Assembly: GCF_000244895.1 (NCBI RefSeq)
Contig: NZ_CM001441.1
Span: 4,616,198-4,680,197 of the forward strand
DNA length: 64,000 bases
From: Desulfosporosinus youngiae DSM 17734
GTDB lineage: Bacteria > Bacillota > Desulfitobacteriia > Desulfitobacteriales > Desulfitobacteriaceae
Direction of reading: 5' to 3'
The translations under genes were made by a program, and so were the position numbers. Position 1 is the first letter of the stretch. Each line of letters begins with the position of its first letter. Of this stretch, positions 1,054 through 63,597 are shown piece by piece. Below the pieces are notes generated by a model, which saw only the letters and a list, made by a program, of their open reading frames with translations, made no database searches and was not told the DNA's origin.

Positions 1054-2124
1054 TTACCCGGCTTTCACAAACAAGCGCAGGACATCTTTGTAGGTTACGG
1101 CAAGCATTAAGCCCATAAGTAACACAAACCCTACTAAATGAATCATATTTTCCTTTTCCGGATTAAGCGGTTTCCCTCTCAAACCTTCAATCAGCAGGAA
1201 AACCAGCCGGCTTCCATCAAGGGCAGGGATAGGAAATAAGTTAATTAGACCCAATTGAATGCTTAAAACTCCCGTTAAGCCCAAAAGATTAGAGAATCCT
1301 TCCTTAGCCCCTTCTCCGATCACCTGGGCAATCATGACGGGACCTCCGACATCAGCCGGGATCTTTCCCGTGACCATTTGGGTCAAAGTCACAACAATTA
1401 ACTTTGTAAAATCTATAGAGCGTTGAATTCCTACACGAGTTGATTCAAAGATGGAGGCATGAACATACGTGACTTCCGGCGCAATCCCAATCATACCATT
1501 CCCTGATTGTGGGTCCTTTTCTGTCTTTATTGACACCGTTTGGCGTTGCTGTTCGCTTCCTCGTTCAATAGTTAAGCTTAAAACCTGGTCTGGTTTGGAA
1601 TGAATTAATTCTGTCAAACGAGCCCAATCTGCGGTTATTTCCTGATCGACCGCAATGATTCTATCTCCCGGTTGAATTCCGGCTGTCGCCGCTGGTTTAC
1701 CTTTAACTAAAGAACCAACCATATTGCTATTCCCTTGGGCTGGAATCCCCAGATAAGCAAAGACGCTTATAAACATGATAATCGCCAGAACGAAGTTCAT
1801 AATCGGTCCGGCCGCAATGACAGCCATGCGCTGCCACACCGGCTTATTCATAAAGCTTCTCGCATCATTATTTGAGACAATCATTGGCTGGCCATTTTTA
1901 TCGAGTTCTGCATCCATCCCATGAAGTTTAACGAACCCACCCAGAGGAATCAGACGCAGAGCATAAAGTGTTTCTCTCCCCTGGTAACCCACGATTTTCG
2001 GACCGAAACCAAAACTGAACTCAATAACCTTGACGCCAATCCATTTTGCGACAATATAGTGTCCGAATTCATGAATCATAACCATGCTTCCAAATACAAA
2101 AACAATGGCGAGTGTCGTTAACAC
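1054..2124 (-). CDS. rseP: Site-2 intramembrane zinc metalloprotease RseP/RasP
   Basis: Membrane protease that cleaves substrates within transmembrane segments (anti-sigma factors, leftover signal peptides in relatives). 356 aa. The zinc site HEFGH is at residues 18-22 within the first membrane segment; a PDZ domain lies around residues 120-200 (GIQPGDRIIAVD); the third metal ligand sits in PALDGSR near residue 300, followed by C-terminal membrane segments. The start codon is GTG (2122-2124) preceded by AAAAGGGGGG. It sits between dxr and ispG, the usual Firmicute order. A 194-bp gap separates it from dxr and carries 7-bp repeats, so it may have its own promoter; a weak TTGACG-17-TGAATT lies around 2255-2283. 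Confidence 0.95.
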   Translation of the reverse strand: MLTTLAIVFVFGSMVMIHEFGHYIVAKWIGVKVIEFSFGFGPKIVGYQGRETLYALRLIPLGGFVKLHGMDAELDKNGQPMIVSNNDARSFMNKPVWQRMAVIAAGPIMNFVLAIIMFISVFAYLGIPAQGNSNMVGSLVKGKPAATAGIQPGDRIIAVDQEITADWARLTELIHSKPDQVLSLTIERGSEQQRQTVSIKTEKDPQSGNGMIGIAPEVTYVHASIFESTRVGIQRSIDFTKLIVVTLTQMVTGKIPADVGGPVMIAQVIGEGAKEGFSNLLGLTGVLSIQLGLINLFPIPALDGSRLVFLLIEGLRGKPLNPEKENMIHLVGFVLLMGLMLAVTYKDVLRLFVKAG

Positions 2125-2141
2125 TTTAATCCCCCCTTTTC

Positions 2142-2162
2142 GATGTTCGTGGTTCGAACATC
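2142..2162. repeat. Inverted repeat and 7-bp array upstream of rseP
   Basis: GATGTTCG, 5-nt loop, CGAACATC. The same bases (2140-2167) read as 7-bp units beginning TCG/TCA, so the hairpin is part of the repeat family. Confidence 0.6.
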
Positions 2163-2318
2163 ATTTACGAATATCCAGTATTGCGTACTTTGTTCCATTC
2201 CGTGGTTCTTTTAATCATCTAAGGGCTACTCATCTGATCTCAAGCTGGTGTATCCAAATTCAGGCTGAGAGTACTATTTCGTCAAGTGTACCAGAGTTCA
2301 TGGCTTCAAGGTTCATGC

Positions 2319-3497
2319 TTAACAGTCCTTACGATTCGAACATCGCGCCTCGAGCCTCGCAATATGTTCTTCAGCCCGGCGCCGTGCCCAAGTATCCGCA
2401 TCGAGTATGCTTTCCAAATCCATATTATCTAAAACATGGTGCTCGGAACAAACGTTTCCGACGATGTCGTGGATCCCTAAATACGATACTTTCTTCTGCA
2501 GAAATGCCGATACTGCAACTTCATTAGCCGCATTCATAACCGCTGGCAGAGTTCCCCCTTGCCGGCCGGCCTGATAAGCCATTGCTAAAGCGGGAAAGGC
2601 TTCAAAATCGGGTTCGTGAAAGGTTAATGTTTTCCCCCGAAGGTTAAGGCGTTCAAAGGGATTTTTCCAACGTGTCGGATAACTTAAGGCATATTGGATT
2701 GGCAGCCGCATATCCGGCCTGCCTAATTGAGCAAGGACTGACCCATCACAATATTCCACCATAGAATGGACTACACTTTGGGGATGAATCAGCACCTCTA
2801 TTCCATCATATTCTATATTAAATAGATGATGCGCTTCAATGACTTCAAGCCCCTTGTTCATCATCGTTGACGAATCAATCGTGATCTTTGCACCCATTTC
2901 CCAGTTAGGATGGCGGAGAGCTTTCTCTAAGGTAACCGTCCCTAACTTCTCCTTGGTCCATCCAAAAAAAGGCCCTCCCGAAGCGGTTAGAATAATTTTT
3001 TCTATGGTTTTTGATTCTTCCTCTAAACATTGAAAAATTGCTGAGTGTTCACTATCAACCGGCAGGATTTTGCAGTTCTTTTTCTTTGCGGAGGACATAA
3101 CTAAATCCCCGCCGGCTACTAAAGTTTCTTTATTGGCCAGAGCAATCGTCTTTCCAGCTTCTATGGCAGCAAGGGTGGGCTCTAAGCCAATTCGACCTGA
3201 AAGAGCCGTAACGACTGTATCTATTTGAGGAGCGGTAACAGAGTTAATTATCCCCTCCATGCCCTGGTCGACTTTAATAGGTAAATCTCTTAGCCGGCCA
3301 CGCAGTTCACGAACCGCACCCTCGTCCATCATCACTACTACAGCCGGATTAAAGAGCCGAGCCTGTTCTTCCATGAGTTTCACATTTTTAGCGGCGGCCA
3401 AAGCATGTATCTTAAGTTCCCCTTCGGCATGACGAACAACATCTAGAGTTTGACGGCCGATTGACCCTGTCGATCCTAATAGAGTCAGCGTTTTCAA
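2319..3497 (-). CDS. dxr: 1-deoxy-D-xylulose 5-phosphate reductoisomerase
   Basis: First committed step of the MEP pathway: DXP to MEP with NADPH and a divalent metal. 392 aa. The nucleotide-binding GSTGSIGRQTLDVV is at the N-terminus; the metal and substrate site is seen in LPVDSEHSAIFQ, TASGGPFF and GLEVIEAHHLFN, and the flexible loop in HPQSVVHSMVEY. The start is TTG with a GGGAGAG box about 10 nt upstream. The last dozen or so codons (IARLEARCSNRKDC) are written by an intergenic 7-bp repeat array at 2336-2363, so the C-terminal tail is not conserved family sequence and the gene may have read into the repeat. Lies between the YtvI-like gene and rseP. Confidence 0.95.
   Translation of the reverse strand: MKTLTLLGSTGSIGRQTLDVVRHAEGELKIHALAAAKNVKLMEEQARLFNPAVVVMMDEGAVRELRGRLRDLPIKVDQGMEGIINSVTAPQIDTVVTALSGRIGLEPTLAAIEAGKTIALANKETLVAGGDLVMSSAKKKNCKILPVDSEHSAIFQCLEEESKTIEKIILTASGGPFFGWTKEKLGTVTLEKALRHPNWEMGAKITIDSSTMMNKGLEVIEAHHLFNIEYDGIEVLIHPQSVVHSMVEYCDGSVLAQLGRPDMRLPIQYALSYPTRWKNPFERLNLRGKTLTFHEPDFEAFPALAMAYQAGRQGGTLPAVMNAANEVAVSAFLQKKVSYLGIHDIVGNVCSEHHVLDNMDLESILDADTWARRRAEEHIARLEARCSNRKDC
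2336..2363. repeat. 7-bp periodic TCG array at the 3' end of dxr
   Basis: Four 7-bp units, each starting TCG, entirely within the last codons of dxr. Degenerate TTCAWGG units continue into the gap (about 2297-2325). Confidence 0.75.
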
Positions 3498-5456: not shown

Positions 5457-6182
5457 TCAATCTGTATGTATTCCACCAAAGCGGCGATCCCGTTTCTGGT
5501 ATGTTTTAATCGCATCAAGTAACGTCTTTTCGCCAAAATCAGGCCAAAGATCTTCAATTACGACGATTTCTGTATAGGCTAGTTGCCAGAGCAAAAAGTT
5601 ACTTAGCCTCATTTCCCCTGAGGTTCGGATCATTAAATCGGGATCCGGCAACCCTTTGGTAAAGAGTACATCACTAAATTGCGCTTCACCAATCTCTTCA
5701 ATTTTTTGCTTCCCGCTCAAAACATCACTGCATAATGTCTTGACAGCACCAATGATCTCAGATCGCCCACCATAATTTAAAGCAAGGTTTAGAATGAGAC
5801 CCGTATTATTACGCGTGTGTTTCATAGAATTCTCTAATTCGCGCTGTGCCTCCCGAGGCAGGCCGGCAATGCCCCCTATAGCACGAATAACTACATTATT
5901 CTGATGAAGTTCTTGGAGTTCCTTTCTCAGATACTCTGTCAGCAGAGTCATGAGCACACCCACTTCATCTTTAGGCCTGCTCCAATTTTCAGTAGAAAAT
6001 GCATACACAGTTAAGACCTCAATACCTATTTTAGAACAGGCCTTAACAACCTTCCGCAGGGCCTCGACACCTGCCCGATGTCCCATCGAACGAGGAAGCG
6101 CACGCTTTTGAGCCCATCGCCCATTCCCATCCATGATAATGGCAATATGGCGAGGAAGGCGTTCCAGCGCAATTTGGTCCAT
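5457..6182 (-). CDS. uppS: Undecaprenyl diphosphate synthase (cis-prenyltransferase)
   Basis: Adds isopentenyl units to farnesyl diphosphate to make the C55 carrier lipid for peptidoglycan. 241 aa from the ATG at 6180-6182, which has AAGGTGG five bases upstream; an open frame continues to a GTG at 6233 (258 aa) but that start lacks a spaced ribosome site. The catalytic Asp is in IIMDGNGRWA (Asp18), and the substrate-binding RTSGEMRLSNFLLWQ and AYTEIVV blocks are present. Uses the isoprenoid units made by dxr and ispG downstream. Preceded by a small conserved-looking ORF and a hairpin at 6274-6304. Confidence 0.96.
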   Translation of the reverse strand: MDQIALERLPRHIAIIMDGNGRWAQKRALPRSMGHRAGVEALRKVVKACSKIGIEVLTVYAFSTENWSRPKDEVGVLMTLLTEYLRKELQELHQNNVVIRAIGGIAGLPREAQRELENSMKHTRNNTGLILNLALNYGGRSEIIGAVKTLCSDVLSGKQKIEEIGEAQFSDVLFTKGLPDPDLMIRTSGEMRLSNFLLWQLAYTEIVVIEDLWPDFGEKTLLDAIKTYQKRDRRFGGIHTD

Positions 6183-6240
6183 TGAATCCACCTTATTTTG
6201 TTTCCAAGCCTTTAGCCACATCATCGATTGCACCCCTAAC

Positions 6241-6273
6241 TCGATATTCGAACCACTAACCTCAAATTACGAG
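6241..6273. repeat. Degenerate 7-bp array between uppS and the small ORF
   Basis: Units of seven bases (TCGATAT, TCGAACC, ACTAACC, TCAAATT, ACGAG) upstream of uppS, running directly into the inverted repeat at 6274-6304. Confidence 0.5.
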
Positions 6274-7877: not shown

Positions 7878-8531
7878 TTATTTATTTAGTTCTTTCATAA
7901 CTTCAGCAGCAAAGTCATCCTGTCTTTTTTCAATGCCTGCACCTAACTCATAACGTGTGAAGCGGCGAATTACGATGCGTTCACCAATTTTAGCTGTCTT
8001 ATCCAGAATAAGTTCACTAATGCTCTTATCTGGATCCTTGACAAAAGCTTGTTCCATTAAACATACTTCTTTGTAGAATTTTCCGATTCTGCCCTCAACC
8101 ATTTTTTCAACGACCTTTTCGGGCTTTCCTTCATTGAGAGCTTGGGCCTTCAAGATATCTCTTTCATGTTGAAGCACGTCAGCCGGAACTTCTTCTTTAG
8201 TTAAATATTGTGGATTCGCAGCTGCGATATGCAGACCAAGATCACGGACTAACGTCTTAAATTCGTCCCCTCGAGCGACAAAGTCTGTCTCGCAGTTTAC
8301 TTCCAGCAAAACGCCAATTCGTCCGCCGCCATGAATGTAGGACTCAATCAATCCTTCTGCCGCGATACGTGCACCTTTTTTAGCTGCCGCAGCCAATCCT
8401 TTTTCACGGAGAAAGTCACAAGCCTTTTCCATTTCTCCGCCGCATTCTGTAAGTGCCTTTTTGCAGTCCATCATGCCTGCACCGGTCCGTTCTCTAAGCT
8501 CTTTAACTAGAGCTGCAGTTACCTCTGCCAT
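7878..8531 (-). CDS. tsf: Translation elongation factor Ts
   Basis: Nucleotide exchange factor that reloads EF-Tu with GTP. 217 aa, the short form found in many Firmicutes. The N-terminal UBA-like domain has [17 protein letters not shown], and the core carries the ETDFVAR motif that contacts EF-Tu, ending in a single dimerisation subdomain. ATG preceded by GGAGGG. Follows rpsB as in nearly all bacteria, but the 212-bp gap between them is unusually full of repeats (two 7-bp arrays and a palindrome), and it is closed by its own terminator. Confidence 0.97.
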
Positions 8532-8549: not shown

Positions 8550-8584
8550 TCGATGCACGAAGCTCGAGGAACGAGGCTCGATAT
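8550..8584. repeat. 7-bp periodic TCGA array, rpsB-tsf gap, copy 1
   Basis: Five consecutive 7-bp units, each with CGA at positions 2-4 (consensus WCGARGC), lie just upstream of the tsf ribosome site. Same family as arrays listed elsewhere in this window. Confidence 0.75.
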
Positions 8585-8704: not shown

Positions 8705-8739
8705 GCGAGGCTCGAGCTTCGAGCTTCGAACCTCGCACA
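8705..8739. repeat. 7-bp periodic TCGA array, rpsB-tsf gap, copy 2
   Basis: Five units of seven bases, two of them identical (TCGAGCT), ending four bases before the rpsB stop. The outer ends (GCGAGG / CCTCGC) are also inverted, so a transcript could fold. Confidence 0.75.
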
Positions 8740-8743
8740 TCAA

Positions 8744-9469
8744 TTACGCTTCGACCGCTTCTGCGGCTTCTTCAGCATCTTCCTCGCTGCCTTGTTGTCC
8801 TTCGATAATGGCATCAGCCATTTTTCCGGTCAGCAGCTTGACCGCACGAATAGCATCATCATTAGCCGGAATAACAACATCGATCTCATCCGGATCGCAG
8901 TTCGTATCCACTATTGCAACGATAGGAATATTAAGGCGGCGTGCTTCCGCAACGGCAATGCGTTCTTTACGCGGATCTACAATAAACAGAGCATCCGGGA
9001 GTTTCTTCATATTCTTAATTCCGCCCAGGAAACGCTCCAGTTTTTCCATCTCATGACGCAGTGCAGAAACTTCCTTTTTGGTAAGCACTTCAAAAACGCC
9101 TTCTGCTTCCATGTTTTCCAAAACACGCAACCGGTCGACACGCTTTTGAATTGTTTGGAAGTTGGTCAGCATTCCTCCAAGCCAACGCTCATTAACGAAG
9201 TACATACCACAACGTGCAGCCTCTTCTTTAACCGACTCTTGCGCTTGTTTCTTGGTACCTACAAACAGCATGGTACCTCCTTCAGTAGCAAGATTCCGAA
9301 CAAAGTTATAAGCCTCATCTACTTTTTTTACGGTTTTTTGCAAATCGATAATGTAGATTCCATTACGCTCGGTAAAAATGTACCGTGCCATTTTAGGATT
9401 CCACCGACGTGTTTGGTGTCCAAAGTGTACACCCGCTTCAAGTAATTGTTTCATTGAAATAACAGCCAT
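8744..9469 (-). CDS. rpsB: Small ribosomal subunit protein uS2
   Basis: Structural protein of the 30S subunit, needed for bS1 docking. 241 aa with the standard start [19 protein letters not shown] and the conserved [24 protein letters not shown] and [13 protein letters not shown] blocks; the tail is acidic and Ala-rich. ATG with GTAGGTTG upstream. A long 249-aa frame on the opposite strand over this gene is a shadow. Upstream 188 bp hold a probable promoter (9593-9621) and a long leader, which leaves room for autoregulation but no known S2 leader motif was recognised. Confidence 0.98.
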
Positions 9470-9592: not shown

Positions 9593-9621
9593 AGATTAGC
9601 ATATTCTTAGCAGCTTTGCAA
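9593..9621 (-). promoter_or_regulatory. Candidate promoter for rpsB-tsf
   Basis: Minus strand TTGCAA, 17-bp spacer, TAATCT with an extended TGC just before the -10. Would give a leader of about 115 nt before rpsB. By-eye call; individual hexamers are mediocre. Confidence 0.4.
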
Positions 9622-9657
9622 CGAGCTTGCACTTCTGAGCCTCAAATTCCCTCTTGC

Positions 9658-10107
9658 TTAATTAGCATACCGATTAAGATTGGAACGTATATCATGCTGT
9701 TGAATAAAAATCTCTAAATCGCTCATAAGTTCGGGAAAAGGAAAATAGAATTCACTTACATAATATAAATCCTCACTCGTCCGAATCTGAGCAATTTCCT
9801 GCCCCTTGTCATCAAAATAAAAGGCGACCCGTCGAATATCCTTTGGCTCAAGGATATGTTCGCCCAGTAAGGAATGAAAGACAATTTGCTCACCGTTCGT
9901 AATAATGCGTTTGCTCTTGGCGACGACCCATAATGTTAGAATTCCAAGCCCTGAAATCACATAGATTCCTATGAGCACTCTTAATTCCAGGGTTGGCAGC
10001 GTGCTGAAACCATGGATTCCTCCAACAATCAGGGGGTATAGAATGAGAAACACAAGGCCTGGAATAATAAGGGGTCTCAGTTGGTAAACATAATCATGTT
10101 CTTCCAT
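9658..10107 (-). CDS. Membrane protein with two TM segments and a PH-like domain
   Basis: 149 aa, not assigned to a named family. Two hydrophobic segments (about residues 12-35 and 43-64) are followed by a soluble beta-rich region of the kind seen in bacterial PH-like membrane proteins: KSKRIITNGEQIVFHSLL, then DIRRVAFYFDDKGQEIAQIRT and a C-terminal helix. ATG with AGGAGG upstream. It lies 25 bp after codY and probably shares its transcript. No catalytic residues are evident; a role in envelope or protein-protein contact would be a guess. Confidence 0.7.
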   Translation of the reverse strand: MEEHDYVYQLRPLIIPGLVFLILYPLIVGGIHGFSTLPTLELRVLIGIYVISGLGILTLWVVAKSKRIITNGEQIVFHSLLGEHILEPKDIRRVAFYFDDKGQEIAQIRTSEDLYYVSEFYFPFPELMSDLEIFIQQHDIRSNLNRYAN

Positions 10108-10132
10108 CGAAATACCTCCTGCTATAAGCGGC

Positions 10133-10927
10133 CTACTTCATGTGTTTAGTGTGTTTATCAAGTTCATCCAGCAAATAATCATTAAGAACTCGGATATAAG
10201 TTCCTTTCATTCCCAGTGATTTTGACTCGATTACTCCGGCGGACTCAAATTTTCTCAGGGCATTGACAATTACAGAACGGGTAATCCCCACTCGATCCGC
10301 AATTTTGCTGGCTACCAATAGTCCTTCTCCGCCGCCCAATTCAGCAAAGATATGTTCAACTGCTTCAAGTTCGGAATAGGAGAGAGTTCCTACGGCAATT
10401 TGAACTGCTGCTTTTTTACGTGCTTCTTCTTCTGCCCGTTCAGCCTTAACTCGCAAAATTTCCATACCTACAACTGTGGCACCATATTCGGCGAGAACTA
10501 GATCGGCCTCATCAAATTCGACATCATATTTAGCGAGCACAAGCGTCCCGACGCGTTCTCCCCCACCTAAGATCGGTACGGTCGTTGTCAGTTTATTGTT
10601 AAAACCACACCGTTCATTATTATTAAAGATGCAGCCATTAGCGACTTGGGTAGTATTCGTCGTTGTTCCGGTAACTTTCATCAACCCTTCGTTGTAGCTT
10701 TCCGGGAACCGTTCGCTGTGAATAACAATATCCTCCATGATTCCGCATACGAAACCATCCATAAAACTATATCCCATAATTTTTCCGCGCCGTCCTACAA
10801 TATAACAGTTGGCATTCACCGCCTGCCGAAGTACTGTGGCCATTTCCTCAAAATCTACAGGATTACCTGCAGCGCGCTGAATTAACTTATTTATCGATCT
10901 TGTTTTTTCTAATAATGTGGTTACCAT
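10133..10927 (-). CDS. codY: GTP- and branched-chain-amino-acid-sensing global repressor CodY
   Basis: Global regulator that represses adaptive genes when GTP and Ile/Leu/Val are plentiful. 264 aa, standard length. An N-terminal GAF domain (residues 1-160) is followed by the winged helix with SKIADRVGITRSVIVNALRKFESAG, the near-invariant CodY recognition helix. ATG with AAGGAGG upstream. It follows hslV-hslU as in Bacillus (where the set is xerC-clpQ-clpY-codY). Its nearest strong promoter is the one upstream of hslV (12940-12968). Confidence 0.97.
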   Translation of the reverse strand: MVTTLLEKTRSINKLIQRAAGNPVDFEEMATVLRQAVNANCYIVGRRGKIMGYSFMDGFVCGIMEDIVIHSERFPESYNEGLMKVTGTTTNTTQVANGCIFNNNERCGFNNKLTTTVPILGGGERVGTLVLAKYDVEFDEADLVLAEYGATVVGMEILRVKAERAEEEARKKAAVQIAVGTLSYSELEAVEHIFAELGGGEGLLVASKIADRVGITRSVIVNALRKFESAGVIESKSLGMKGTYIRVLNDYLLDELDKHTKHMK

Positions 10928-10988: not shown

Positions 10989-12374
10989 CTACAAAATATA
11001 GCGTGCCAAATCCTGGTTCCGAACAACATTTCCCAAGCGATGCTCAACATATTCCCGATTAATGGTCACCGTGTAGTCATCGGGCAGTTCTGAGGCTTCA
11101 AACGATAACTCTTCCAGGACTTTTTCGACAATGGTGTGAAGTCGGCGTGCACCTATATTTTCTGTCGTAGAATTAACTTTGTATGCAACTTCTGCTAATT
11201 CATCAATAGCATTCTCTGTAAATTCAACGTTTATCCCTTCAGTTCCCAATAAGGCGCTGTATTGTTTAATAAGCGAGGATTGAGGTTCGGTAAGAATTCG
11301 TTTGAAATCCGCAACGCTCAATGACTCAAGTTCCACTCTAATTGGAAATCTGCCCTGTAGTTCGGGGATAAGGTCCGATGGTTTACTGACATGGAAAGCT
11401 CCTGCTGCGATAAATAGGATGTGATCAGTTTTTACAGGCCCATACTTTGTTACTATCGTAGATCCTTCAACGATCGGAAGAATGTCGCGTTGGACACCTC
11501 CCCGGGAAACATCCGCACCGCTGGTATTCTCCCGCCCCGCAATTTTATCGATTTCATCTAAGAATACAATTCCCTCTTGCTCAGTTCTTCGTATTGCATC
11601 CTGAACCGCTTCATCGTGGTCGATTAAGTTTTGAGCTTCTTCCTGGATTAAGATCTTTCGCGCTTCACGTACAGTAACTTTCCTCTTTTTGTGCCGCTTT
11701 GGAAGCATCCCAGACATCATATCCTGAATGTTCAAACCCATCTCCATCATATTATTGTTACCCAGCATATCTGAAAGAGGCATACTTTCTTCTACCGAAA
11801 TATCAATAATTTTCTCTTCAAGCTCTCCAAGTCGTAAATGTTCGTTGACAATCTTACGTTCTTTTTCGATTTCCGGAGTTATTTCAGGTTCTTTCTCCTG
11901 ATTTGCCGACTGGCCAAATAACATTTGAAAAGGGTTACCAGAGGAACTCTCTTTGCGTTTTTCGGGAACGAGCAACTCCAGTAAGCGTTTTTCGGCGTTA
12001 ACCGCAGCCTGAGCCTGAACTTGTTCCATGCGCTCCGCCTTGACCATACGCAGCGATATTTCGATTAAATCCCGGATGATCGATTCCACATCCCGGCCTA
12101 CATAGCCAACTTCAGTAAATTTTGTTGCTTCGATCTTAATAAAGGGGGCTTTTACCAGCCTTGCCAGACGCCGTGCTATCTCCGTTTTACCCACACCTGT
12201 TGGCCCTATCATCAGAATGTTTTTCGGTATTACTTCTTCCTGCAACTGTTCCGGCAGGCAAGAACGCCGGTAACGATTACGCAAAGCAACTGCAACAGCC
12301 CTTTTGGCAGTATTCTGTCCAATTATATATTGATCCAATTCATGGACAATCTCACGTGGAGTCAAGCGATCCAT
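10989..12374 (-). CDS. hslU: ATP-dependent protease ATPase subunit HslU (ClpY)
   Basis: AAA+ unfoldase that feeds HslV. 461 aa from the ATG at 12372-12374; a GTG two codons earlier is too close to the GGGGG ribosome site. Walker A is [14 protein letters not shown] (about residues 58-71), followed by the GYVGRDV pore motif; the I-domain lies roughly between residues 110 and 240; Walker B is [11 protein letters not shown], and sensor and arginine-finger regions are present ([11 protein letters not shown]). The C-terminus ends in the LARYIL tail that docks into HslV. Starts 12 bp after hslV. Confidence 0.97.
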
Positions 12375-42880: not shown

Positions 42881-43696
42881 TTACTTATGTATGCTCTTAG
42901 AAGAACGCCGCCGTCGCTTAGGGGGTGGGCAAAGATGTTCCCATTTTCCTCGCCAGCGGGCGATTTCTTCGTGCTCAAGGATAAGTTCCTCTAAAAGAGG
43001 ATAATCATCCGTTCTAAAAATAACCCCATTGATCAGATCCGGCCGTCTTAAAAAGGTACGCCTTAGAGACTCTTTTCTCCGCCAACGTTTAATCTGAGCA
43101 TGATGTCCGGATAACAAAACATCCGGTACCTTCTGCCCCTCAAAATCGGCCGGGCGGGTATATTGGGGATACTCTAAGAGTCCGATGCTATGTGAATCTT
43201 CCTCTGCAGAAGCTTCTTCTCCAAGAACTCCGGGAATGAGCCTTACCACTGCATCAATCATAACCATTGCAGCAAGTTCCCCTCCTGTCAAGACATAGTC
43301 TCCCAAAGAAACTTCTTCATCAGCCAACTCTCGAATCCGCTCGTCGAATCCCTCATAGTGCCCACATATAAAGACAAGCTCCTCCTGCTCAGACCATTGC
43401 TTAGCCTTCTCCTGATGAAAGACCTGGCCCTGGGGAGACATGAGAATCAGCCTCCGTCCGGCAGAGGTCTGAGGCAAATCCCTTATTGCAGCAAAAATAG
43501 GTTCGGGCTTTAAAAGCATACCTGCTCCGCCACCGTAAGGAACATCATCAACATTTTTATGTTTACTGGCTGCATAATCCCGAAAATTTATCAGTCGAAT
43601 CTCTATAAGTCCCGCTTCTTGGGCGCGTTTTATAATGCTCTCTTGCAAAGGTACAAACATCTCCGGGAATAAGGTTACAACCGTAATTTGCATCAT
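42881..43696 (-). CDS. trmD: tRNA (guanine-37-N1)-methyltransferase TrmD
   Basis: Methylates G37 next to the anticodon to prevent frameshifting. 271 aa, about 25 residues longer than usual at the C-terminus, where a basic tail ([15 protein letters not shown]) runs into repeat-derived sequence. SPOUT knot: [26 protein letters not shown]; the interdomain [13 protein letters not shown] and [17 protein letters not shown] follow. Two adjacent ATG codons at 43691-43696. Confidence 0.96.
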
Positions 43697-43720: not shown

Positions 43721-43748
43721 TCGTGGTTCGAACTATCAATCTCGAAGC
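43721..43748. repeat. 7-bp periodic TCGA array at the 3' end of rimM
   Basis: Four units of seven bases (units 1, 2 and 4 start TCG). The rimM stop at 43736-43738 and its last three codons fall inside. Confidence 0.6.
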
Positions 43749-44554: not shown

Positions 44555-44821
44555 TTAGTTCTTGGACTCGTGGAATTTGGTCATAATGCCAGCCTGACTT
44601 AACAAAGACTTAGCAGTATTTGAAGGCTGAGCACCAGTTGAAAGCCATTTCAGAGCCTTTTCCTCGTCAATGTTCAGAACTACAGGGCTTTTAGTCGGAT
44701 CATAATATCCAAGTTGTTCAATGAACCGCCCATCACGCGGGGCTCTGGAATCAGCAACTACCATACGGTAGAAAGGATTCTTTTTTGCGCCCATACGGCA
44801 CAAACGAATTTTCGCAGCCAT
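44555..44821 (-). CDS. rpsP: Small ribosomal subunit protein bS16
   Basis: 30S assembly protein. 88 aa: [20 protein letters not shown] (start), [19 protein letters not shown] and [22 protein letters not shown] with GAGGAGGTG upstream. A 7-bp repeat array lies in its leader. Confidence 0.98.
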
Positions 44822-44839: not shown

Positions 44840-44874
44840 TCGAGGTTCGAAGTTCGAAGTTCGAGGTTCGAATG
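44840..44874. repeat. 7-bp periodic TCGA array in the ffh-rpsP gap (clearest copy)
   Basis: Five tandem units, nearly identical: TCGARGT four times and TCGAATG. Weaker 7-bp periodicity continues to about 44902. The ribosome site of rpsP is five bases away. Confidence 0.85.
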
Positions 44875-46801: not shown

Positions 46802-46839
46802 GTGCAACCCCCTGTAAAGCGATTTTACTTTACATCGGA

Positions 46840-46868
46840 ATATTAGACTAAATCTCCCGGTTTGTCAA
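46840..46868 (-). promoter_or_regulatory. SigA-type promoter of ylxM-ffh
   Basis: Minus strand TTGACA (46863-46868), 17 bp, TAATAT (46840-46845). The first TTG of the -35 is shared with the end of the palindrome at 46866-46899. An inverted pair GTAAAG/CTTTAC (46814-46833) lies in the early leader. Confidence 0.7.
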
Positions 46869-46899
46869 GTAGGGGCAATTCATGAATTGCCCCTACTTG
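46866..46899. repeat. 34-bp perfect palindrome
   Basis: Two 17-bp arms without a loop (CAAGTAGGGGCAATTCA and its complement), three bases from the mtaD stop and overlapping the ylxM promoter. GTAGGGGC-type palindromes are a known style of dispersed repeat in bacterial genomes. On the minus strand it could also act as a terminator of the mtaD unit, but no T-run follows. Confidence 0.85.
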
Positions 46900-46902
46900 C
46901 AC

Positions 46903-56707: not shown

Positions 56708-57661
56708 TTATTCCTCCTTAGCGCTGAGTATTCCTTCTTTAATATCTTCAAAAATCTTATGCACAGACAAAACATCTTTAATTTTATGGACTTTTGCGCC
56801 GGAAAAGATAAGTCCCTCCTGAACATTCCCTTGCTGAGCCATAATTAACCGGCTCATAATGCAAAAGTTCCCCTCACAGTGTTTGAGACAACCCTCACAG
56901 GAGGTAGGGGTGACGTCCGCCTTTTCATCAAGGGCCCGTGTGAAGGGGTTGCGGATTCCCCGGCCCGGCAACCCTACCGGACTATGCACAAACACGATGT
57001 CCTCTTCGGTAGCCTTTAACATTTCCGCTTTCCAGGCGGGAGCTGCACTGCTCTCTTCACTGAGTGCAAACCGGGTTCCCATTTGTACCCCTGCCGCACC
57101 TTTCTTCAACATTTCTGCTACACCTTGTCCATCCACAACTCCTCCGGCGCCAATGACAGGGATATTGACCGCTGCCACGACTTCCGGAAGAATATCGTGT
57201 ATAGAACGGTCTGTCCCTAAATGTCCTCCAGCCTCTACCCCTTCCACGATCACAGCGGCAGCACCTAGCTTTTGGGATAGTTTTGCCAGTTTTGCTGATG
57301 ACACAATGGGCACGACCGGAATGCCCTTTTCTTTACCCCAGGTAAACATATCCCTGGAAAAGCCGGCTCCCGAAACTAAAAGATCAATTTTCTCTTCAAA
57401 GGCGGCGTGAACCAATTGGGCAAATTCACGGACAGCAAACATGATGTTTACCCCAATGATCCCTTTGGTACGTCGTCTTGCCTCACGAATTTCAGCTTTC
57501 AGCTCCTCTGCCGACAGACCGCTGCCGGCAATTATGCCAATCCCCCCCTCTTCAGCTACCGCTGCAGCGAGAGGAGCCATGGATATCCTTACGGCCATTC
57601 CTCCTTGAATAATTGGAATCTTAGCCACTAAATTTGCAATACGAAGGTCGGGTATTTTCAC
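56708..57661 (-). CDS. FabK/nitronate monooxygenase-family FMN enzyme with a C-terminal Cys motif
   Basis: 317 aa FMN TIM-barrel. FMN-binding motifs: IIQGGMAVRISMAPLAAAV, AGGHLGTD, GAGGVVDGQGVAEML and GVQMGTRF. Unlike the enoyl reductase at 59.9 kb it carries CEGCLKHCEGNFC near the C-terminus, a four-Cys motif that suggests metal or cluster binding. It could be a second enoyl-ACP reductase, or a nitronate monooxygenase-like enzyme doing another job in the fab cluster. GTG with AGGAGGAAA upstream. Confidence 0.75.
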   Translation of the reverse strand: MKIPDLRIANLVAKIPIIQGGMAVRISMAPLAAAVAEEGGIGIIAGSGLSAEELKAEIREARRRTKGIIGVNIMFAVREFAQLVHAAFEEKIDLLVSGAGFSRDMFTWGKEKGIPVVPIVSSAKLAKLSQKLGAAAVIVEGVEAGGHLGTDRSIHDILPEVVAAVNIPVIGAGGVVDGQGVAEMLKKGAAGVQMGTRFALSEESSAAPAWKAEMLKATEEDIVFVHSPVGLPGRGIRNPFTRALDEKADVTPTSCEGCLKHCEGNFCIMSRLIMAQQGNVQEGLIFSGAKVHKIKDVLSVHKIFEDIKEGILSAKEE

Positions 57662-57731: not shown

Positions 57732-57759
57732 TCTTGGTTCGATATTCATCCTTCGAAAT
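57732..57759. repeat. 7-bp periodic array upstream of the FabK-like gene
   Basis: Four degenerate units of seven bases (two with TCGA, two with TCTT/TCAT). Lies in the 271-bp gap after acpP. Confidence 0.5.
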
Positions 57760-62874: not shown

Positions 62875-63465
62875 CTACTCCTCCATCTCCCTTTCCCTTA
62901 TAGCTGTAACGTCCTCCATCGCAAAAAGAATCCAATCTCCCCGAAGCACTTCCTCCGCGCCGACACTCACTGATATCTGAACCCAATATTTGTTTTGTTT
63001 TCGCTTAAGAACGGTTCCTTTAGCGATCACAACTTCACCTAATTGAACAGGTCTTTTGAATTTCAACCCAACACTTCCCGTTAAGGCTATGGGAGCATCT
63101 ACTAAGGAAATAGCAAGAGAATTAGCCTGAGCAAACAGATAATGACCACGAGCCACTCTGGCTTTTGCCAAAACCATACTCTCATCAATCACCAGCCTTG
63201 AGCAAGCTCTCTCACCAATAACAAGTTCGAGCAACTCTCCGATAAGTTCCTGATCATCTAAGGCCTTCAGCGTCGAATAGGCTTCTTGAGCAACTGCACG
63301 GGTTCGTTCCCGAAGTTCAGGAATTCCAAGTTCTCCCCGATCCAAACGAATGGTTGATACACTAACTTTAAACTGTTCGGAAAGCTCCTCGTCAGTAAAA
63401 AACGGATTCTCGGAAAGTGCTTCTCCTAATCGTTTGCGGCGTTCTTCTTTACTATATCGAGTCAT
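62875..63465 (-). CDS. fapR: Transcription factor FapR (malonyl-CoA-responsive repressor of lipid synthesis)
   Basis: 196 aa. N-terminal DeoR-like HTH (FTDEELSEQFKVSVSTIRLDRGELGIPE) and a C-terminal hotdog domain that binds malonyl-CoA (ARGHYLFAQANSLAISL, SVGLKFKRPVQLGEVVIAKG). In Bacillus it represses the fab and pls genes and is relieved by malonyl-CoA, which matches the genes downstream here. ATG with GGTGATA upstream. It leads the operon and may control itself. Confidence 0.94.
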   Translation of the reverse strand: MTRYSKEERRKRLGEALSENPFFTDEELSEQFKVSVSTIRLDRGELGIPELRERTRAVAQEAYSTLKALDDQELIGELLELVIGERACSRLVIDESMVLAKARVARGHYLFAQANSLAISLVDAPIALTGSVGLKFKRPVQLGEVVIAKGTVLKRKQNKYWVQISVSVGAEEVLRGDWILFAMEDVTAIREREMEE

Positions 63466-63562: not shown

Positions 63563-63597
63563 TCGAACTTCGTGCATCGCACTTCGCGCCTCGCTTT
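63563..63597. repeat. 7-bp periodic TCG array in the fapR leader
   Basis: Five units of seven bases, each beginning TCG. Starts about 10 bp downstream of the predicted start of fapR transcription. Confidence 0.7.

Follow-up and report, generated by a model that had tools for sequence, protein, structure and literature searches.

Why should five copies of a heptanucleotide stand in a row just upstream of rpsP in Desulfosporosinus youngiae DSM 17734, and what brought them there? The question comes from an inspection of 64,000 nucleotides of the genome of this organism (the window, that is, the whole stretch of DNA that was analysed), which had recognized this array, listed companions with the same period and hesitated between a family born of slippage, sites for a binding protein and a replicating mini-element. 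We have followed these arrays through the genome, the genus and more distant Bacillota. The picture that emerges is more ordered than expected: the arrays are oriented with respect to the genes that they adjoin.

The arrays, their unit and their spread

The array at rpsP is as it had been described. Its five tandem heptamers are TCGAGGT, TCGAAGT, TCGAAGT, TCGAGGT and TCGAATG, and TRF gives it a period of 7 with 4.7 copies. The companions (Table 1) are likewise period-7 arrays of three to five units each, with a single exception: at 9620–9655, where a very decayed array had been suspected, no heptamer signal was seen. Over the window the distance between TCGA tetranucleotides is 7 in seven cases, 14 in twelve and 21 in three, while no other distance up to 60 occurs more than four times. 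Searched with Rfam 15, the window and the array loci gave only rRNA and tRNA above the gathering score, and no family for the arrays. Arrays lie in gaps or at gene edges, as had been described, but the one at 2336–2363 falls within the dxr reading frame, at its 3′ end; a search of the whole genome for four units found it again, at place 4618533. The C-terminal tail of the organism's own Dxr is therefore array-encoded. Most congeners end earlier, some have comparable tails, and because these tails (window 2319–2363) vary by species, the heptamer repeat both adds to protein ends and alters them. Ribosomal, isoprenoid and lipid genes do adjoin arrays, as had been remarked, but this link reflects the operons that are present in the window.

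Table 1. Heptamer arrays of the window, with the strand on which GARGYNN is read and the neighbouring genes
Array	Position	Strand	Place
Five units	44840–44874	+	before Shine-Dalgarno of rpsP (44555–44821, minus strand)
Closed hairpin	8705–8739		directly 3′ of the stop codon of rpsB (8744–9469, minus strand)
Five units	8550–8584	+	before Shine-Dalgarno of tsf (7878–8531, minus strand); R form in tsf sense
Three to four units	2140–2167	+	before Shine-Dalgarno of rseP (1054–2124, minus strand); R form in gene sense
L form	2336–2363	-	3′ end of the gene upstream of rseP (2319–3497, taken as dxr)
Degenerate, mixed form	6241–6273		before uppS (5457–6233, minus strand)
Degenerate	43721–43748	+	over the rimM stop, before Shine-Dalgarno of trmD (42881–43696, minus strand)
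Degenerate	57732–57759	+	upstream of a fabK-like gene (56708–57661, minus strand)
Five units	63563–63597	-	middle of the gap upstream of fapR (62875–63465, minus strand)

The heptamer arrays are genuine; they occur throughout the genome and keep to its gaps. We examined 264 kb (the window and another 200 kb of this genome, with our own gene calls) for triplets of CG spaced by exactly 7. Gaps contain 53 of them and genes 19. Other spacings yield 1–10 in gaps (19 at spacing 14, a harmonic) and 16–46 in genes, where spacing 7 is therefore without excess. Self-similarity at lags of 7, 14 and 21 in the gaps of congener loci produced 91, 63 and 41 clusters, against 0–16 at other lags, multiples of 7 excepted; 224 kb of genes produced two clusters at lag 7, which is not prominent there. 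Pattern searches of the whole genome returned 63 matches to TCGANNTTCGANNTTCGA with at most one mismatch (3 for the reversed control), and 70 matches to a four-unit pattern (1 for its reversed counterpart). Two of the checks that had been proposed, autocorrelation in gaps against genes and a genome-wide scan, thus gave a clear answer: the periodic signal is strong in gaps and does not rise beyond background in genes, and arrays recur elsewhere in the genome well above reversed controls. Their density is high in the core-gene region; no enrichment was observed in a 200-kb stretch at 2.0–2.2 Mb.

What is repeated is the unit GARGYNN, in this genome mostly GARGTTC. An orientation-blind matrix established at lag 7 reads G 1.0, A 0.96, R 0.78, G 0.82, Y 0.96, T 0.75, C 0.82 for this genome (the phase having been set on GA, the values at positions 1 and 2 follow in part from that choice), and those of congeners are similar. 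Across the genus and in other families GARGY is kept while the last two bases vary (GARGTCA, GARGTTA, GARGCAC, GARGTGC and others). The palindromic core TTCGAA, once thought central, is thus one flavour of the unit and not its essence: congeners and other families display GARGYCA, GARGYTA and further forms that are not palindromic. Generic arrays of four GARGYNN units were present in 95 of 398 genomes sampled across the phylum, the richest having 60–70 matches each where the reversed control had few or none; some relatives (such as G032) had none. One array, of about 41 units, belongs to another genus of the same family (G031). There, about 41 GAAGTCR heptamers fill one gap (L262; G031:C1, around 1010080–1010400), likely a fast-changing tandem repeat locus.

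Orientation with respect to gene ends

A feature missed by the original prediction, and new here, is polarity. Let us call L form the unit GARGYNN read in gene sense, and R form its reverse complement. In gaps between co-directional genes the L form is found directly after stop codons, the R form directly before the Shine-Dalgarno sequence. The genome of interest has 7 L and no R arrays after stops, 8 R and no L before starts; orthologous gaps of congeners, which are not independent of one another, have 30 L and no R after stops, 44 R and 2 L before starts, ties being left out. The array that opened this inquiry follows the rule: GARGYNN is read there on the plus strand, so that the rpsP leader bears the complement, the R form. 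The array upstream of fapR, with GARGYNN in gene sense, is an exception to what is found before starts.

When orientation was derived from the content in G versus C alone, the rule was kept 19:1 after stops and 29:4 before starts. In congeners the GARG strand has the gene on its 5′ side 29:1; the ratio is 6:2 in the genome of interest and 10:3 in G031. With no use of gene calls, neighbouring arrays within 300 nt of each other succeed one another in left–right order 20 times, and once right–left. A loose scan for GARGYNN near starts was noisy because Shine-Dalgarno sequences resemble the unit, and it was set aside for stricter and orientation-blind scans; G295 and G385, with gene calls too poor for the purpose, were omitted from the polarity test. 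The 16S–23S rRNA spacer of the organism (L125, around 9990–10470) also carries arrays, in the GARG form after 16S and after tRNA-Ala and in the complementary form just before tRNA-Ile.

Slippage, selection and competing explanations

Among sister species, 16 of the 33 indels of at least 3 nt located inside arrays are multiples of 7. Outside arrays, in the same set of gaps, the count is 23 of 164, close to the one in seven that chance alone would give (sister triples were counted pairwise). Comparison of the same gaps in relatives, another of the checks that had been suggested, therefore reveals copy number changing by whole heptamers; together with the array of some 41 units in another genus, this supports the idea that the family was born of slippage. 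As judged from the sister sequences, whole-unit slippage is established. The rimM–trmD gap is 3–10 bp long in some species and 39–78 bp, with arrays, in others; the array of the window in that gap is missing from sister species, or differs by 21 bp. Likewise, the gap between trmD and the next gene measures 16 bp in L218 and 95 bp in L221. Another palindromic repeat, GGGGCAATTCATGAATTGCCCC, was met in the gap orthologous to window 46802–46902 (L203, L219, L220), inserted upstream of one and the same gene in some congeners only.

The explanation that we favour, tentatively and with slightly less than an even chance of being right, is that of intergenic heptamers grown by slippage, filtered in orientation by what mRNAs tolerate, and co-opted at a few loci. 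Arrays would grow and shrink by replication slippage in steps of 7 nt and would persist in gaps only, with the purine (GARG) strand retained when it points outward from the nearest gene end. The mRNA leader would then have, beside the Shine-Dalgarno sequence, a CYTC-rich complement that presumably neither competes with the ribosome-binding site nor traps it; L units resemble the Shine-Dalgarno sequence (GAGG), so that L arrays beside a start would be decoys. Behind stop codons stands the GARG form; the positions and orientations themselves are observed. Since the rule applies at both ends of a gap, two arrays in one gap form an inverted pair, and arrays of the TCGA flavour could close into hairpins. 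A few loci may have been taken over, with a putative role for the hairpin 3′ of rpsB and a conserved leader segment at rpsP. We infer that this filter is the cause of polarity; it accounts better for the start side, where GARG mimics the Shine-Dalgarno sequence, than for the stop side. Two observations count against this explanation: the array upstream of fapR breaks the pattern, and arrays return in the same gaps of different species, a recurrence that slippage by itself would not lead one to expect.

Some gaps are indeed recurrent. Arrays are found between rpsB and tsf in 19 of 20 species, between ffh and rpsP in 15 of 18, between dxr and rseP in 14 of 19, and between frr and uppS in 13 of 20, while most other orthologous gaps have none or have them in one to five species. 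Downstream of rpsB (the array reads GCGAGGTTCGAAGCTCGAAGCTCGAGCCTCGC in rpsB sense) the stem is kept though its sequence changes, with a median z of -5.2 for 21 sequences. This value comes from folds made species by species, because from one species to the next the arms of the repeat are displaced by one unit, and the alignment was therefore not used for counting pairs. In one species (L196) an unrelated stem with six T takes its place, and this suggests for the rpsB hairpin a terminator-like role, or that of a 3′-protecting stabilizer. In the 15 congeners that have an array before rpsP, it is of R form and in the same place. Mean column identity reaches 0.96 over the rpsP array in 17 species – conservation given presence, as only species keeping the array were aligned – against 0.81–0.84 just upstream and 0.32 from the array to the Shine-Dalgarno sequence. 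A few arrays, those of rpsB and rpsP, thus look as if they were under selection. Sequestration of the Shine-Dalgarno sequence by CCTC units was considered and rejected: the Shine-Dalgarno region is unpaired at 0.51 with R arrays versus 0.41 with shuffled arrays, and higher in 40 of 54 cases, so that R arrays leave it on average less paired.

Could the arrays rather be the two arms of small mobile hairpin elements, inserted between stop and Shine-Dalgarno sequence and later blurred by slippage? Polarity would then follow from the left and right arms being inverted repeats. We regard this as rather unlikely, yet several observations speak for it. It covers both sides, start and stop, and fits what is seen in other families; it agrees with the 20:1 excess of left–right neighbours, with the fact that both arms are of the same flavour in 13 of 14 classifiable pairs, and with array-bearing insertions where sister species have short gaps. 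Furthermore, in G295 and G415, of another family, arrays flank an inner hairpin, GGAACTGGCnnnGCCAGTTCC, of which three genomes have 79, 10 and 4 exact copies, one copy being located between two tRNA genes of an rRNA spacer. Against it, arrays are the only sequence shared by the gaps of the organism's own genome, which have no common interior, and many arrays are single. More specific versions found no support: a co-evolved stem between the left and the right array of a gap, since complementarity within a gap is no better than across gaps (p about 0.24–0.26); a MITE with conserved interior in this genome, similarity being limited to the arrays; and mobilization by RAYT, REP-type (Y1) transposases being missing from two array-bearing genomes, G295 and G003. 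Of the replicating mini-element first imagined there remain the insertions between stop and Shine-Dalgarno sequence and the hairpin arms of another family, but neither an interior shared by the copies of this genome nor a transposase in every genome with arrays.

That the arrays are sites for a protein reading RNA or DNA in steps of 7 nt (Rho acting on YC-rich leader RNA, say, or a regulator of translation) seems improbable. Such a protein would explain the fixed position beside the Shine-Dalgarno sequence, the persistence of arrays in the same gaps over the genus and a conservation of the rpsP array that exceeds that of its flanks, and binding by a translational regulator has been put forward for TAACTGA repeats, as presented in PMC4679880. 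However, units drift freely except at a few loci, and most orthologous gaps have no array. Much less credible still is the formation of G-quadruplexes, with polarity marking where they are tolerated. It is true that period, intergenic location and strand rule match those of GGGNATC heptamers (PMC4692102), but GGG, the tract by which that type could form quadruplexes, is present on the G-rich strand of a single one of the 80 arrays detected without regard to orientation, and even GG is missing from many units. Lacking GGG, the arrays do not have quadruplexes as their general cause, and the polarity rule does not need them.

In G295 we also came across a dispersed, leader-like element of about 150 nt that comprises the inner hairpin GAAACTGGCnnnGCCAGTTTC, then a heptamer array, then the Shine-Dalgarno sequence TTTCGGAGGAG (L324, L327, L336 and L338 near 1500; L310 at 9600–9700 and 11720–11800). 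The 79 exact inner hairpins are spread over a genome of 3.3 Mb, and the copies inspected stand directly upstream of genes. This element, which has no match in Rfam, may be mobile or may represent a family of leader RNAs.

A variety of known heptamer repeats

In many bacteria heptanucleotides are reported to outnumber all other long simple repeats, and a polymerase footprint of 7 nt has been suggested to explain this (Mrazek et al. 2007, cited in both PMC4679880 and PMC4692102). The view that no family with this period had been described must be amended, since heptamer families have been published (PMC4679880, PMC4692102); among the open-licence papers, to which the search extended, we met none that describes a GARGYNN family. 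As in intergenic heptamer simple-sequence repeats, the tandem period of 7 nt is above chance and over-represented in non-coding DNA, and relatives differ by whole units.

Similar to MITE, REP and foldback elements are the inverted arms, the hairpins, the short intergenic gaps and the dispersed hairpin of G295 and G415, with its inner palindrome. This genome differs from them in having neither a conserved interior – a shared body appears only in distant G295 – nor a linked transposase; single arms are common and, despite the left–right order, complementarity of the arms is not specific to the gap. The STRR heptamers of cyanobacteria (Calothrix, Nostoc) are also tandem 7-nt intergenic units present many times per genome, with other units and in another phylum. 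Among heptamers, we know of an earlier polarity rule only for the GGGNATC type.

The TAACTGA heptamers of Beggiatoaceae stand in tandem just upstream of start codons, in ribosomal protein operons among others; they have one fixed unit, and a stop-side rule is not among the features reported, so far as the account in PMC4679880 goes (MacGregor 2015). The present unit, with GARGYTC as its matrix, is not TAACTGA: it drifts, uses both gene ends and stands upstream of a normal Shine-Dalgarno sequence. Closer are the GGGNATC or GGGGA(C/T)T heptamers of Xanthomonas and Nostoc (Rehm et al. 2015, PMC4692102). They too are tandem 7-nt units in gaps, mostly between co-directional genes, with copy numbers that vary among relatives, and they obey a strand rule: the nearest ORF is on the 5′ side, the repeat being on the non-coding strand before starts and on the coding strand after stops. 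Their authors stressed G-quadruplexes and left function open (PMC4692102). In both families the G-rich strand points away from the nearest gene; GARGYNN is degenerate, has a flavour able to form hairpins, belongs to Bacillota and, without G-tracts, would form no canonical quadruplex, unlike GGGNATC.

GARGYNN is thus a further variety of the known intergenic heptamer repeats, more ordered than had been perceived. It also offers a case where slippage debris seems to turn into a conserved leader or hairpin. The polarity that it has in common with the unrelated GGGNATC is the part worth following. It is doubtful, though conceivable, that one shared process with a 7-nt step creates or orients unrelated heptamer families in distant phyla, be it polymerase slippage linked to transcription that runs out of genes or a binding factor stepping by 7 nt; as GARGYNN arrays lack G-tracts, such a process would not be the G-quadruplex. 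A heptamer devoid of G-tracts, in Bacillota and under the same strand rule as GGGNATC, makes the cause of that rule testable.
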